Part shown: positions 5,599 to 48,141 of the stretch, in pieces | Position numbering within the stretch: the first letter of the stretch is position 1 | Layout: each line of letters begins with the position of its first letter | Origin: Alphaproteobacteria bacterium | Lineage (GTDB): Bacteria; Pseudomonadota; Alphaproteobacteria; CAAGCB01; CAG-977 | Direction of reading: 5' to 3' | Assembly (NCBI GenBank): GCA_017616015.1 | Contig: JAFZYY010000024.1 | Coordinates: forward strand, 62,001 to 126,000 | DNA: 64,000 nucleotides | Program-made: the position numbers and the translations under genes | Notes under the pieces: model-generated | Told to the model about the DNA's origin: nothing | The model's database searches: none | What the model saw: only the letters and a program-made list of their open reading frames with translations

Positions 5599-6675
5599 AT
5601 GAGCTTTGAAGAAAAACTGGACGTCGTTCTGGCTCGTCATGAAGAACTGGAAGCTCTGCTCGGTTCCGGCGAAGGCGTGGACGGCGAAACGTTTGTTAAG
5701 CTTTCCAAGGAACTTGCGGCGTTGAAAGACGTTGTCGTCGTTATTCAGGCGTACAAAAAGGTGTTGTCCGATATGGAAGGCGCGCAGGCTTTACTGGACG
5801 ATCCCGAAACAGACGATGAAATGCGCTCGATGGCGCACGATGAAATTTACGCGGCTAAGGAAAAGTTGCCCGAACTGGAAAAACAGTTAAAGATTCTTTT
5901 GCTACCCAAAAACGCCGTTGACGAAAAGAACGCGATTCTGGAAGTCCGCGCCGGCACGGGCGGGGAAGAAGCCGCTTTGTTCGCCGCCGAGCTGTTCCGT
6001 ATGTATGAGCATTACGCGGCCGTGCAGGGGTGGAAATTTGAAATGCTGTCCGTCAATGACACGGGGCTTGGCGGATACAAGGAAGCCACGGCCAGCGTGA
6101 CGGGACGCAATGTGTTCGAACGTCTGAAGTTTGAATCCGGCGTCCACCGCGTTCAGCGCGTGCCGGAAACGGAAGCGTCGGGACGCGTGCACACGTCCGC
6201 CGCGACGGTCGCCGTTCTGCCCGAAGCCGAAGAAGTCGATCTGAAAATCGATGAAAAAGATTTAAAGATTGATGTGTACCGTTCTTCCGGCGCCGGCGGT
6301 CAGCACGTCAACAAAACGGAATCCGCCGTGCGTATCACGCATATTCCGACAGGTATTGTCGTCGCGTGTCAGGACGAGCGCTCTCAGTTTAAAAATAAAG
6401 ACCGCGCGATGCGTATTTTACGTTCCCGCATTTACGACATGCAGCAAGCGCAGTTGGACAAGGAACGCGCGGTTGACCGCAAGAATCAAGTCGGTTCCGG
6501 CGACCGTTCCGAACGCATTCGCACCTATAATTTTCCGCAGGGGCGCGTGACCGATCATCGTATCAATCTGACTTTATATAAGATAGACGAAGTGATGAAC
6601 GGCACGGCATTGAACGAAATTATCGAAGCGTTGATTGCGGAAGATCAGCTGTCCCGTCTTTCCGAACTTGAGTAA
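5599..6675 (+). CDS. prfA: Peptide chain release factor 1
   Basis: RF1 reads UAA and UAG and triggers peptide release. In the 358-residue protein the catalytic GGQ is at 233-235 ([11 protein letters not shown]). The stop-codon recognition tripeptide appears as PET in [13 protein letters not shown], the PxT form of RF1 rather than the SPF of RF2; PET is usual in alphaproteobacteria. It lies in the hisS-prfA-prmC run with gaps of 1 and 2 bases. PrmC, encoded next, methylates the glutamine of this GGQ motif. Confidence 0.97.
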
Positions 6676-6677
6676 GA

Positions 6678-7541
6678 ATGCAGGTTAAGAAACTTCTTTC
6701 CGAACTGACGGAACGTTTTGAACGGGCGGGGCTGGACGAAGCGCGTGCAGACGCCAGAGTTCTGGTCGCATTCGGAATCAATAAAACGCCTGTTTTTTTA
6801 CGGATAAATCCCGATTTTGAGGTCGAAGCCGACGATTTGGCAAAAATACAGTCCTTTGCCGACCGGCGGCTGAAACATGAGCCTGTTTCAAAAATCACGC
6901 AGACACGCGGCTTTTGGCGGTTGGATTTTAAAGTGACGCCGGACGTTCTGGATCCGCGTCCCGATTCCGAAACGCTGATAGAGGAAGCTTTAAAAATATT
7001 TAGGGATAAGTCGGCTTCTTTAAAAATACTGGATTTGGGAACCGGCTCCGGCTGTCTGGCGCAGGCTCTTTTGTGTGAATACTTTAAAGCAACGGCGGTC
7101 GGATTGGACAGTTCCGGAAAAGCCTTGGCGGTTGCAGCGGAAAACGCGGCGGCAAACGGACTGAAAGACCGCTTTTCAACCGTTTTGGCAGATTGGAATG
7201 ACGACGGTTGGGAAAACGGATTGGGAAAGTTTGATTTGATTGTTGCCAATCCGCCGTATATTGCAGAAAAAGAAAGGGAAACTCTGGCTCCGGAAGTCGT
7301 TGACTATGATCCGGCACAGGCGCTTTTTGCCGGAGAAGACGGTTTGGACGCCTATCGGAAAATCGCGCCCGCTTTGCCGCGTCTGCTGAAAAAAGACGGA
7401 GTCTTTATCACGGAATTCGGCAAAGGACAGGAAGAGGACGTGCGCCGGATTGTTTGTTCCGCCGGTCTGCGTTTCGGAACTTTCGGTGTGGATTTGGGCA
7501 AAATTACGCGCTGTCTGAGCGCTTTTTATGCCGAAATATAA
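6678..7541 (+). CDS. prmC: Release factor glutamine methyltransferase
   Basis: PrmC (HemK) N5-methylates the GGQ glutamine of RF1 and RF2 with S-adenosylmethionine. The 287-residue protein has a helical N-terminal substrate domain and a Rossmann methyltransferase domain with ILDLGTGSGCLAQAL (SAM motif I) and the catalytic NPPY at 191-194 (VANPPYIAE). It follows prfA, its substrate gene, by 2 bases. A possible intrinsic terminator lies about 50 bases past its stop. Confidence 0.95.
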   Translation: MQVKKLLSELTERFERAGLDEARADARVLVAFGINKTPVFLRINPDFEVEADDLAKIQSFADRRLKHEPVSKITQTRGFWRLDFKVTPDVLDPRPDSETLIEEALKIFRDKSASLKILDLGTGSGCLAQALLCEYFKATAVGLDSSGKALAVAAENAAANGLKDRFSTVLADWNDDGWENGLGKFDLIVANPPYIAEKERETLAPEVVDYDPAQALFAGEDGLDAYRKIAPALPRLLKKDGVFITEFGKGQEEDVRRIVCSAGLRFGTFGVDLGKITRCLSAFYAEI

Positions 7542-7593
7542 AAAAAATATTGAAAAATCTTAAAGAGCCATATAGGTTAAGCAAAGACAACAA

Positions 7594-7627
7594 AGCCTTT
7601 ACCGTAAGAAACGGCGGCTGTTTTTTT
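7594..7627 (+). terminator. Probable intrinsic terminator after prmC
   Basis: A stem AGCC...CCGT / ACGG...GGCT with a small internal loop and an AAGAA apical loop is followed by G and seven T. It would close the lysC-to-prmC transcription unit before the DUF4167 gene. The internal mismatch makes this a moderate call. Confidence 0.5.
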
Positions 7628-7653
7628 ATTTCAACAAAGATGAGTATATTTCG

Positions 7654-8238
7654 ATGGGTATGAATCCTCGGGGACGTTCGCGCGGACGCAACCATAACAA
7701 TTTCAACAACAATCGCCGCTTTAACAACGGCCCTAACCGCAATACGGTCTACGACAGCATCGGACCGGCGGGCAGATTGCGCGGAACGGCGTTTCAGTTA
7801 ATGGAAAAATATATGTCCGCGGCCAAGGAATTGATGTCTTCGGATCGCGTTTTGGCGGAAAGTTGTTTGCAGCATGCCGATCACTATATGCGGATAAATG
7901 CTCTGGCCATAGCAGCGGAAGGCATGCGCTTTGCTCCGCAGAATCAGCCGGAAAGCGAACCCGTTGAAAGTGTTGCGGTATCGGAAGGACAGCCCGTGAT
8001 TGAAGAAGCGGCTCCGTTGCCCGCGGAACAGTCGGCGGAAAGAGAACCTGAAGTTCCTGCGGTTGTCCAGATGGATCTCTCCGTTCCCGTCATGGCGATG
8101 GCTGAAAACGAAATGAAAAACCGTCGCGGCCGTCCTGCGATGAAAAAAGATCCGATTCAATCGGAAGAAGGTACAGCGCCTGTTCCGGTCAAACGTCGCG
8201 GCCGTCCGTCAAAGAAAGCCGTTGCGGCGGAAGCTTAA
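7654..8238 (+). CDS. DUF4167 domain-containing protein
   Basis: A 194-residue basic protein matching the alphaproteobacterial DUF4167 family, known for lying between prmC and clpB as it does here. Residues 1-30 are rich in Arg/Asn/Gly (RGRSRGRNHNNFNNNRRFNN), followed by the conserved helical block SIGPAGRLRGTAFQLMEKYMSA and AESCLQHADHYMRI. The C-terminal half is acidic and Pro/Glu-rich, with two AT-hook-like RRGRP segments (KNRRGRPAMKK and VKRRGRPSKKA) that could bind AT-rich DNA or RNA. Function is unknown. Starts at 7654 and 7660 are both possible; neither has a strong ribosome-binding site. Confidence 0.8.
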   Translation: MGMNPRGRSRGRNHNNFNNNRRFNNGPNRNTVYDSIGPAGRLRGTAFQLMEKYMSAAKELMSSDRVLAESCLQHADHYMRINALAIAAEGMRFAPQNQPESEPVESVAVSEGQPVIEEAAPLPAEQSAEREPEVPAVVQMDLSVPVMAMAENEMKNRRGRPAMKKDPIQSEEGTAPVPVKRRGRPSKKAVAAEA

Positions 8239-44771: not shown

Positions 44772-45227
44772 ATGATTGAAACCAAACGACTGAATATATA
44801 TCCCGCGTCGTCGGAGCAGATGAAAACACTCATTGCCGCCGAAAGAAACGAAGAGCTGAAGGCGGCATATACTGAGATGTTGGAAGGCTCTCTGGTTAAT
44901 CCCGATCAAAGGGAATGGTACGCGCTGTGGATTATCGATCTGAAAGACGGAACTTCTGTTGGCAATTTATGTTTTAAGGGCTTGGTAAACGGTGTTGCGG
45001 AAATCGGATATAGTATTTCAGAAACGCATCAGGGGCGAGGCTATGCGACGGAAGCGGTTGATGCGGCGGTAAAATGGGCTTTGAAGCAGTCCGGCGTCAT
45101 TCGCGTGGAAGCTGAAACGGATCCGGATAATGCGGCTTCCCGTCGCGTCCTTGAAAAATGCGGTTTTATTCCGACGGGAACAATCGGCGAAGAGGGGCCG
45201 CGTTTCGTGTGCGGAGGAACTCTATGA
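44772..45227 (+). CDS. GNAT-family N-acetyltransferase
   Basis: A 151-residue GNAT acetyltransferase (RimJ/RimL-like). It shows AEIGYSISETHQGRGYATEAVDA, with the acetyl-CoA pyrophosphate loop QGRGYA, and ETDPDNAASRRVLEKCGFI. The substrate is not predictable. It is coupled to the P-loop kinase gene by an ATGA overlap and follows the truncated GNAT fragment by 6 bases. Confidence 0.9.
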   Translation: MIETKRLNIYPASSEQMKTLIAAERNEELKAAYTEMLEGSLVNPDQREWYALWIIDLKDGTSVGNLCFKGLVNGVAEIGYSISETHQGRGYATEAVDAAVKWALKQSGVIRVEAETDPDNAASRRVLEKCGFIPTGTIGEEGPRFVCGGTL

Positions 45228-45748
45228 TTATTTTAATAGCCGGAGCGTCACACACAGGTAAAACCGTATTGGCGCAAAGAATGCTTGAAAAGTATCAATA
45301 TCCGTATCTTTCCATAGATCATTTGAAAATGGGACTGATCCGCAGCGGCAATACCGACCTGACACCGCAAGATGATGACAAGCTGACCGGATACCTTTGG
45401 CCGATCGTTCGGGAAATGATCAAAACCGCGATCGAAAACCGGCAAAACCTGATCGTCGAGGGGTGCTATGTTCCGTTTGATTGGCGAAAGGATTTTGACG
45501 ATCGGTATCTGAGTTCGATCCGGTTTGTCTGCCTCGCGATGACGGAAAACTATATCGACGATCATTTTGATGAAATCAAAAAACATGCTTCCGATATAGA
45601 GTCCCGACTGAACGAAGACGATTGTTTTATTGATAATCTGAAAACGGATAACCGGTTTTATATCGAAGGTTTCCGACACGCCGGCGAACAGGTTGCTCTG
45701 ATTGATTCGGAATATGAGCGTGTAATCCGAGGGCTTTTAGAGAAATAA
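45224..45748 (+). CDS. P-loop kinase-like NTPase
   Basis: A 174-residue NTPase of the small-molecule kinase type (AAA/2-phosphoglycerate-kinase or shikimate-kinase-like). Walker A is GASHTGKT at 7-14, followed by LSIDHLKMGLIRSG and LIVEGCYVPFDW. The start at 45224 overlaps the GNAT stop. The substrate is unknown; a zeta-toxin-like reading is possible, but I see no antitoxin partner. Confidence 0.75.
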   Translation: MIILIAGASHTGKTVLAQRMLEKYQYPYLSIDHLKMGLIRSGNTDLTPQDDDKLTGYLWPIVREMIKTAIENRQNLIVEGCYVPFDWRKDFDDRYLSSIRFVCLAMTENYIDDHFDEIKKHASDIESRLNEDDCFIDNLKTDNRFYIEGFRHAGEQVALIDSEYERVIRGLLEK

Positions 45749-45790
45749 AGACAATATAAAACGGAAAGCTGCCTCTTGTTTCTTTATCCG

Positions 45791-45824
45791 ATCGGCGATA
45801 AATAAAAAGGATATGATAAATCGC
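45791..45824 (+). promoter_or_regulatory. Inverted repeat before the permease-GGDEF gene
   Basis: CGGCGAT at 45791-45797 and ATCGCCG at 45818-45824 form a 7-bp inverted repeat with a 20-base AT-rich loop. It ends just before the ribosome-binding site AAGGAG (45826-45831) of the fusion gene. It could be an operator or a translation-control hairpin; the loop is long, so it is only suggestive. Confidence 0.35.
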
Positions 45825-45840
45825 CGTAAGGAGAGAAAGT

Positions 45841-48084
45841 ATGGATAAGACGACAACCGTTACAGGCAATACAACAAAGTTGCAACCGTATCTTTCACAG
45901 TTGGCTGTTTGGGCGCTGTCCGTAGGGACCGCTATCGGCTGGGGATCTCTTGTCGTTACCAGCAAAACCTATCTTTCTCAGGCGGGGCTGTTCGGTTCCG
46001 TCATAGGGCTTCTGATCGGTTTTGTCCTTATGCTGGCGGTTGCCGGCCACTATCATTTTCTGGCCAACCGCTATCCCAGTACGGGCGGGCTTTATAACTA
46101 TGTGAAATACATTTTCGGCTATGACCGCGCCTTTCTGGTGGCCTGGTTCATGTTCCTTGTCTACATTTCGATTTTCTGGGCCAACGCGACAAGCATTCCT
46201 CTGTTTGCGCGATATTTTCTGAGGAATATGTTCGGTTTCGGCTATCTCTATACGGTGTTCAACTATAAGGTTTATCTGGGGGAAGTGCTGGTAACGCTGG
46301 CGGCCATCATTCTTGTCGCTCTGTTGTGCATGAACAGCAAACGGGCGACTGCCGGAACGATGGTGGGACTGGTGTTGCTTTTTACGGTCGGCATTACGGT
46401 TTGCTTTGCGGCGGCCATGGCAGGACATGGCAATACGGAAATGACGATGGAACCGGCTTTTATTCCGGATAAAAGCGCTTTCCGGCAGATCATGCGCATC
46501 GTCTTTATTTCGCCGTGGGCGTTTATCGGTTTTGAAACCGTATCTCATTCCGCCGCGGAGTATCGGTTTAAACACAGTAATATGTTTCGTATTCTTGTCG
46601 CTTCTCTGATTGTTACGACAGCCTTGTATATTTTCGTGATTTTGTTGAGCGTTTCCGCCTATCCCGCAGGCTGTTCAAGTTGGCTGGATTACATTCGCCG
46701 TCTGGACGAATTTGAAGGAATAGAAGGGATCCCCGCCTTTTTTGCCGCCCGCTATTATCTGGGAAATGCCGGCATCTATATTCTGATGGCGTCTTTGATG
46801 GCGTTGGTGCTGACCAGTCTGATCGGCAATTTGCGCGCCGTCAGCCGTCTGTGTTACGCCGTGGCGCAGGACGGCATTCTTCCTGAGCGTTATGCCGGCC
46901 TCAGCAACAAACAGATACCGGTCAAAGCCATTTTTTTGCTGGTTTTTGTTTCTTTGCCGATTCCTTTTCTGGGCAGGACGGCCATCGGTTGGATTGTGGA
47001 CGCGACGACTATCGGAGCGGTCATCATTTACGGTTTCGCCTCTGCCGCCGTTTCTAAAGCGGCTAAGCGGGAAGGGCTCAAAAAGGTCAGTGTTCTCGGC
47101 GGCGTTTGTCTGGCCGTTTGGATCGTCTTTTTGGTATTTCTGCTTTTTCCGGGCGTTTTTTCCGATCATACCATCGAAACGGAAACCTATGCTCTTATAA
47201 CGGCATGGTCCGTGTTCGGCCTGTTCTTTTTCAACAAAGTCATTCGGAAAGATCATGCAAGAAATTTCGGTAAAGCCATTATTGTCTGGGTCGCTTTGCT
47301 GGCTTTTATCGTTCTGATGGCGATGACATGGGCGGAGCGGGAAATCGAAGCCGAAGAAAACGCCGTTGTGGAAGATATTTACACTTATATGGACGGTACG
47401 GCGAGCGGTGACGTGCTTGCAATGGACAAAAGGGTGTTTCTTGACGTTCAGCTCGAACGGCTCCATACGGCAGACTATACTAATATTGTAGTGATTACCG
47501 CGCTGTTCGGCATATCGCTCGCCGTTATGCTCGCCAACTATTTTTCCATTCGGAAATGGGAAGAAAAAGCGGAGAAAGAGAGAGATCAGGCACAGGCGAC
47601 CGCCTTTACGGATTCCCTCACCGGCGTCAAGAGTAAGCATGCCCTGGCCGTGCAGGAGGGTATGTTGGAAACGCAGATCATAGACGGCGAAGCGGAGGAA
47701 TTCGGTATCGTTGTCTGCGATGTGAACGGTCTCAAACACATCAACGACACGCTGGGCCATTCGGCCGGTGACGAGTATATCCGTTCCGCCTGTCGTATGC
47801 TGTGCGAATTTTACGATCACAGTCCTGTTTTCCGCATCGGCGGCGACGAATTCGTCGTTCTGTTGCAGGGGCGCGATTATCAGGCACGCAACGAAATCCT
47901 GCATAACATCAACGCGAAGATCGAGGAAAACATCGGCAAAGGCAGGGTCGTCGCTTCTTTGGGTATGGCGGAATTCAGAAAGGGCGTCGACGCTTCGATC
48001 CATGAAATCTTTAAAAGAGCCGATGCTCTGATGTACGAACGGAAGATGATGCTTAAAGGCATGGGCGCCGTTACGAGAGATTAA
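45841..48084 (+). CDS. APC amino-acid permease fused to a GGDEF diguanylate cyclase
   Basis: A 747-residue fusion in one uninterrupted frame. Residues 1 to about 500 are an APC-superfamily amino-acid permease with about twelve hydrophobic segments and the family's first-helix motif ALSVGTAIGWGSLV. Next comes an extra segment, a loop of about 50 residues (about 500-550) rich in Glu/Asp, and a final membrane helix (NIVVITALFGISLAVMLANY), then a charged coiled coil. The C-terminal GGDEF domain starts at DSLTGVKSKH (residue 591) and has R665-I-G-G-D-E-F671, so it should be catalytic. The RxxD inhibitory site upstream of GGDEF is not present. It looks like a transporter-type nutrient sensor with cyclic-di-GMP output. 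A good RBS (AAGGAG) precedes the start. Confidence 0.92.
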   Translation: MDKTTTVTGNTTKLQPYLSQLAVWALSVGTAIGWGSLVVTSKTYLSQAGLFGSVIGLLIGFVLMLAVAGHYHFLANRYPSTGGLYNYVKYIFGYDRAFLVAWFMFLVYISIFWANATSIPLFARYFLRNMFGFGYLYTVFNYKVYLGEVLVTLAAIILVALLCMNSKRATAGTMVGLVLLFTVGITVCFAAAMAGHGNTEMTMEPAFIPDKSAFRQIMRIVFISPWAFIGFETVSHSAAEYRFKHSNMFRILVASLIVTTALYIFVILLSVSAYPAGCSSWLDYIRRLDEFEGIEGIPAFFAARYYLGNAGIYILMASLMALVLTSLIGNLRAVSRLCYAVAQDGILPERYAGLSNKQIPVKAIFLLVFVSLPIPFLGRTAIGWIVDATTIGAVIIYGFASAAVSKAAKREGLKKVSVLGGVCLAVWIVFLVFLLFPGVFSDHTIETETYALITAWSVFGLFFFNKVIRKDHARNFGKAIIVWVALLAFIVLMAMTWAEREIEAEENAVVEDIYTYMDGTASGDVLAMDKRVFLDVQLERLHTADYTNIVVITALFGISLAVMLANYFSIRKWEEKAEKERDQAQATAFTDSLTGVKSKHALAVQEGMLETQIIDGEAEEFGIVVCDVNGLKHINDTLGHSAGDEYIRSACRMLCEFYDHSPVFRIGGDEFVVLLQGRDYQARNEILHNINAKIEENIGKGRVVASLGMAEFRKGVDASIHEIFKRADALMYERKMMLKGMGAVTRD

Positions 48085-48141
48085 ACGAAAACATACGTTA
48101 ACAAACGTGCTTTCGCATTCGCAGGATCGCGATTAAAGGGC

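Follow-up and report, generated by a model that had tools for sequence, protein, structure and literature searches.

The 64,000-nt stretch analysed here (the window; assembly GCA_017616015.1, contig JAFZYY010000024.1, positions 62,001–126,000, forward strand) comes from a gut Alphaproteobacteria bacterium (CAG-977), and one of its genes encodes an APC-type permease that continues into a predicted GGDEF diguanylate cyclase domain. What does such a protein do, and how did its gene come to stand in this genome?

A permease and a GGDEF domain in one frame

The open reading frame starts with ATG and runs through 747 codons with zero internal stops. A sequence-only reading of the window had proposed a single uninterrupted permease–GGDEF frame, which is borne out in full: the same fused frame recurs in 23 homologues, and therefore neither chance nor a joining frameshift, which that reading had named as the event that might split the protein into two genes, explains the fusion. 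Feature coordinates are collected in Table 1; a promoter scan returned nothing exceeding chance.

Table 1. Features of the permease–GGDEF locus, in window coordinates (aa, residues of the fusion protein)
Feature	Position	Strand	Basis
Tract inserted relative to congener G006 (L082)	45749..48134		tblastn and flank alignment; left boundary approximate
Shine-Dalgarno-like AAGGAG	45828..45833	+	read from sequence; 7 bases 5′ of ATG
APC permease–GGDEF fusion gene, 747 aa	45841..48084	+	single open frame; Pfam; fusion shared by 23 homologues
APC core, 12 helices, aa 18-468	45892..47244	+	Pfam, AF2, Foldseek
TM1 GTAIGWG, aa 29-35; TM6 PWAFIGFE, aa 225-232	within APC core	+	conservation in 44 fused relatives
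TM13, aa 473-499	47257..47337	+	AF2, alignments
Acidic extracytoplasmic loop, aa 500-547	47338..47481	+	alignments
TM14 (aa ~548-570) and coil (aa 571-587) into GGDEF	47482..47601	+	AF2, alignment
GGDEF diguanylate cyclase domain (predicted), aa 588-740	47602..48060	+	Pfam, alignment
GGDEF active-site motif, aa 667-671	47839..47853	+	sequence, alignment

Two Pfam families match far above cut-off: AA_permease_2 at aa 18-451 (E 5.9e-27, profile positions 1-420 of 427) and GGDEF at aa 588-735 (E 2.3e-20). AA_permease also matches the permease core (E 3.1e-13), whereas the intervening aa 452-587 carry zero Pfam domains, and none of the NCBIfam equivalogs matched the protein at cut-off. An AlphaFold2 (AF2) model of moderate quality (24 sequences, pLDDT 72, pTM 0.58), read together with family hydropathy, gives 12 APC helices, then TM13 and TM14, then a helix continuing into the GGDEF domain. 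The best Foldseek matches to the core are AdiC, GkApcT and LAT1-type permeases (TMt about 0.6-0.78), and the core has the LeuT fold with broken TM1 and TM6 that carry glycine motifs (G29, G33, G35 and P225-E232 are conserved). By Pfam profile and fold, the core thus belongs to the APC permease family (TC 2.A.3), and it may transport amino acids or amines. The permease of about twelve helices, the added helix and the acidic outer loop described from the sequence are all borne out, with their coordinates, the 48-residue loop containing 12 D/E against 4 K/R.

Close relatives and two forms of the protein

The sequence-only reading had proposed searching for this architecture in other gut genomes, and the search was productive. 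When a single genome per GTDB species was scanned, 30 loci were obtained. Of these, 29 are closely related to the window gene in the permease part, at 64-75% identity; ruminant-gut Clostridia account for almost all of them, and two loci bear a Coriobacteriia label and one a Flexilinea label. The 23 homologues that were aligned with the window gene, again nearly all from ruminant-gut Clostridia, are 64-74% identical to it and have the GGDEF domain in frame in every case. The Flexilinea-labelled locus (L041) and a Clostridia locus (L037) encode closely related long forms under Chloroflexota and Bacillota labels, respectively, a likeness that would reflect either transfer in the recent past or the mis-binning of a contig.

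The family occurs as a short form of about 745 aa that ends after the GGDEF domain, and as a long form of 1322-1461 aa that adds REC, a second, degenerate GGDEF and EAL. The tree divides the family into two clades: the one with the window protein is fully supported and consists of 12 short forms, and the other comprises 11 long and 3 short forms. An EAL domain is present within the same chain in 11 of 26 relatives in the tree. Some short forms have these parts nearby. Immediately upstream of the permease–GGDEF gene in L050 and L055, and in the same orientation, stand a REC-GGDEF-EAL gene and a small gene, and L057 has a REC-GGDEF-EAL gene just downstream, so that components joined in one clade are encoded by adjacent genes in part of the other. 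The order REC-GGDEF-EAL, small protein of ~110 aa, permease–GGDEF (L050:2907-4977 and L055:412-2453) has the appearance of a phosphorelay operon built around the short form. The small protein has an Hpt domain in L055 (E 4.3e-6) and no Pfam match in L050, the L050 neighbourhood additionally holds a hybrid kinase, and L063, where the contig end leaves only a permease fragment, matches this gene order by position.

Exchange of outputs on the permease module

When the permease with TM13 and TM14 is treated as a module (aa 8-585), six outputs are found attached to it: GGDEF; GGDEF-REC-GGDEF-EAL; PAS-GGDEF; HisKA-HATPase-REC(-REC); PAS-HK-REC-REC; and HD-GYP. The window protein fits the plan common to these relatives, namely APC core, TM13, outer loop, TM14 and cytosolic output. 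When the tree is built from the permease module alone, L087 (GGDEF), L088 (PAS-GGDEF) and L089 (PAS-HK-REC-REC) form one group with 100/100 support and short branches. Outputs thus vary on a constant permease module, the pattern expected for a sensory input. Source genomes hold up to about five paralogues each.

Several loci deserve separate mention. A Clostridiales genome carries tandem, same-strand permease–GGDEF paralogues (L087:2735-5038 and 5913-8168) whose permease domains share 75% and 43% identity with that of the window gene, which suggests local receptor duplication. L106:856-3234 and L107:736-2961 join an APC permease to an HD-GYP-type phosphodiesterase (Pfam HD_5), a predicted c-di-GMP activity opposite to that of the window gene. 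At L059:873-3740, a 956-aa protein joins a second APC permease to HK-REC; its gene lies ~1.2 kb upstream of the permease–GGDEF gene, in the same orientation.

Conservation of the pocket motifs, junction and GGDEF domain

Mean pairwise identity is highest in TM13 (81%), followed by the APC core (75%) and the GGDEF domain (64%), and lowest in the outer loop (44%). Positions at least 95% conserved in 44 fused relatives are the TM1 glycines, A114-N115 in TM3, P225-W226-A227 and G230-F231-E232 in TM6, and W384/D387 in TM10. Among relatives, loop length ranges between 14 and 54 aa; on these alignments the loop is dispensable. Conserved pocket motifs beside a shrinking, variable loop make the pocket, rather than the loop, the likely input. 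Two of the three unfused relatives (L109 and L099) stop near TM12 and lack TM13 and TM14, which argues that the two helices came with the signalling role. The W226-xFIGxE232 stretch of TM6 resembles the AdiC gate residues W202/E208, a likeness that we take as a lead only.

Within the GGDEF domain, D627, K632, N635, D644, G667-F671, K735 and K739 are invariant in the alignment of 24 sequences, and this full set of catalytic residues predicts a diguanylate cyclase. The same alignment has zero gaps over aa 540-604, from TM14 into GGDEF, which suits a signalling helix of fixed register. Both the intact R-I-GGDEF (665-671) and the missing RxxD site noted from the sequence were found again. RxxD is absent throughout the GGDEF domain, its place being taken by YDHS here and by FKHS, FQHS and the like in relatives. 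The RxxD product-inhibition site is optional in the GGDEF family, and membership does not need it. Since 0 of 24 aligned members have the site, its absence is a family state and not a lesion of the window copy, and the "loss of feedback site" that had been proposed is no loss. Nor does it follow that the output is unrestrained by product, given an EAL domain within the chain in some tree relatives and encoded by an adjoining gene in others.

A probable permease-derived receptor and its alternatives

We consider it likely that the protein is a permease-derived membrane receptor whose predicted cyclase activity would be governed by the core, through occupancy by a putative ligand or through putative transport cycling. 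In this model, the ligand would be a small molecule, most probably an amino acid or an amine related to one. It would bind the central pocket between TM1 and TM6, and its occupancy or transport cycling would shift the APC core. TM13 and TM14, as placed in the structural model, would relay this shift to the coil, which would fix the relative orientation of the paired GGDEF domains in a dimer and hence the rate of cyclic-di-GMP synthesis. The ligand class, dimerisation, response direction, retained transport and cyclase activity are parts of the model that we infer. The transceptor originally proposed, which would turn amino-acid uptake or binding into cyclic-di-GMP, is therefore strengthened as a permease-derived receptor by the six outputs and the conserved pocket, while its coupling to amino-acid binding or uptake is still a prediction.

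Whether the permease part also transports is a question internal to this model. A pure binding sensor that has given up transport, as proposed for yeast Ssy1, is a serious contender to which we give somewhat less than even chances. Ssy1 itself offers a precedent for a receptor-only permease (PMC12958826), many paralogues per genome suit a receptor role, W34 stands where the usual TM1 motif has a small residue, and the TM5 lysine used by GkApcT appears as T182 in the family, a tentative assignment from a HMMER alignment of low local reliability. Against it, all hallmark APC motifs are retained, the unfused L109 shares GWG in TM1 and PWAFVGF in TM6, and CbrA performs both transport and signalling (PMC7918813).

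Coupling could also run in reverse, with the GGDEF domain governing the activity or location of an otherwise ordinary transporter. Among the Foldseek matches is KimA, a permease of the APC superfamily whose structure was determined in complex with c-di-AMP. This reading is nevertheless improbable, as related permease modules bear kinases with receivers, GGDEF, EAL and HD-GYP, a range that points to an input module, and as the GGDEF domain retains its synthesis residues and has no RxxD product site. A further alternative is that the extracytoplasmic loop between TM13 and TM14 does the sensing, while the permease serves passively as an anchor or acts as a co-receptor: the two-helix hairpin and outer loop resemble simple periplasmic sensors in AF2 and hydropathy topology. 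We regard this as quite unlikely, because the loop is the least conserved segment and is only 14-24 aa long in a number of fused relatives, whereas the pocket motifs are nearly invariant.

A broader version of the receptor model is tentative, and we would wager slightly against it as a whole: an undescribed, modular family of APC-permease receptors in the gut and rumen, its module swapped among GGDEF, EAL/HD-GYP and HK-REC, with amino-acid (or amine) uptake, and not just binding, coupled to output, and with the window copy having passed from Clostridia to an alphaproteobacterium.

Comparison with known transporter-linked signalling proteins

Among the closest known systems are the SLC5-STAC-histidine kinases of the CbrA/CrbS type, which likewise link a LeuT-fold transporter to a bacterial signalling output (PMC13022988, PMC7918813); CbrA has been described as a rare transceptor (PMC13022988), and histidine transport has been demonstrated for it (PMC7918813). 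Those proteins combine an SSS/SLC5 transporter (TC 2.A.21) with STAC and a kinase, in contrast to the APC family (2.A.3), two extra helices, 17-residue coil and cyclase seen here. Specifically, Pfam gives only AA_permease families and no SLC5/SSS domain in the window protein, and Pfam, AF2 and alignment reveal no STAC domain, ~17 residues separating TM14 from GGDEF. Amt-GGDEF (PDB 8qj3/8qj4/8qpf) is also a transporter fused to GGDEF, and aa 614-695, within the GGDEF part, match the PDB chain; it is an ammonium transporter of the Amt/Rh fold, and the permease part described here has no sequence match to it. KsAmt5 (Amt-HK) similarly joins a transporter of the Amt/Rh fold, for ammonium, to a signalling output, in this case a kinase (PMC10433425).

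Yeast Ssy1, an amino-acid receptor derived from transporters (PMC12958826), and Gap1 (as cited in PMC11109136) share the use of an amino-acid transporter fold as receptor or transceptor. Both are eukaryotic, and Ssy1 acts through partner proteins, unlike the fused enzyme here. The 5TMR/S-component-like receptors (PMC11109136) resemble the present family as a transporter-related module with GGDEF, EAL, PAS, HK and REC outputs, but have the ECF S-component fold, which is unrelated to the LeuT fold. GkApcT (PDB 6f34/5oqt) and AdiC (5j4n, 3l1l) share the permease fold and the TM1/TM6 motif pattern, but are unfused 12-helix transporters with 15-19% identity over the structural alignment. None of CbrA, KsAmt5, Amt-GGDEF and Ssy1 is an APC permease joined to c-di-GMP enzymes via two extra helices. 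Literature searches found no publication on an APC (2.A.3) permease–GGDEF protein or fused APC transceptor; subscription papers and domain databases lay outside their scope, so the architecture may be catalogued somewhere, though not studied.

Arrival of the gene in the alphaproteobacterial host

The host tmRNA is of the alphaproteobacterial type. At the thresholds used, relatives were found in 0 of 11 other genomes of the host order and in none of the others in a 398-genome sample of the phylum. Samples centred on two source genomes contain relatives in at least 8 of 391 and at least 5 of 199 genomes, both lower bounds since scoring covered the top candidates per genome. In congener G006, the upstream AAA gene and adhE (74% and 94% identical to their host counterparts, respectively) are immediate neighbours without a permease gene between them, constituting an empty site; in the host, the 2.24-kb gene stands between the two, and homology with G006 resumes at ~48135, just before adhE. 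The empty site, together with the lack of relatives in the order and phylum sample, indicates that the gene arrived by horizontal transfer. The donor group was probably rumen Clostridia, judging from a tree in which the window protein nests among Bacillota sequences. The GC content of the gene (0.506, against 0.491 for the window) is host-like and uninformative as a transfer signal. That the gene is an assembly, frameshift or binning artefact is barely credible: the host assembly is a draft of 34 contigs and the gene is missing from the host's relatives, but the equal fused frame in 23 homologues refutes a frame artefact, and flanks matching congeners at 74-94% protein identity on both sides, with the empty site in G006, lead us to reject a binning artefact.

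The small P-loop protein encoded directly upstream (window 45158-45748), which is AAA/zeta-toxin-like below the Pfam cut-off, is kept beside adhE in the congener. An operon link between the permease–GGDEF gene and adhE is not supported, as adhE adjoins the AAA gene in G006 without a permease.

The host gene is a lone acquisition, without EAL or Hpt neighbours. The host genome encodes five GGDEF and three EAL proteins and no PilZ proteins, and given this lack of PilZ the permease–GGDEF gene could be idle there.

Implications

Transporter-derived receptors are already known (CbrA, Amt-HK, Amt-GGDEF). Bacterial transporter-receptors have been described as rare, with few cases such as CbrA and KsAmt5, and the APC family offers dozens of members. 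Its interchangeable outputs on closely related permease modules constitute natural chimeras for asking whether binding or transport cycling generates the signal. To our knowledge, few c-di-GMP inputs have been described for rumen bacteria; if the receptor model is true, the family would be a direct nutrient input to c-di-GMP in these organisms. The window copy shows that a single gene for such a predicted receptor can cross between phyla.
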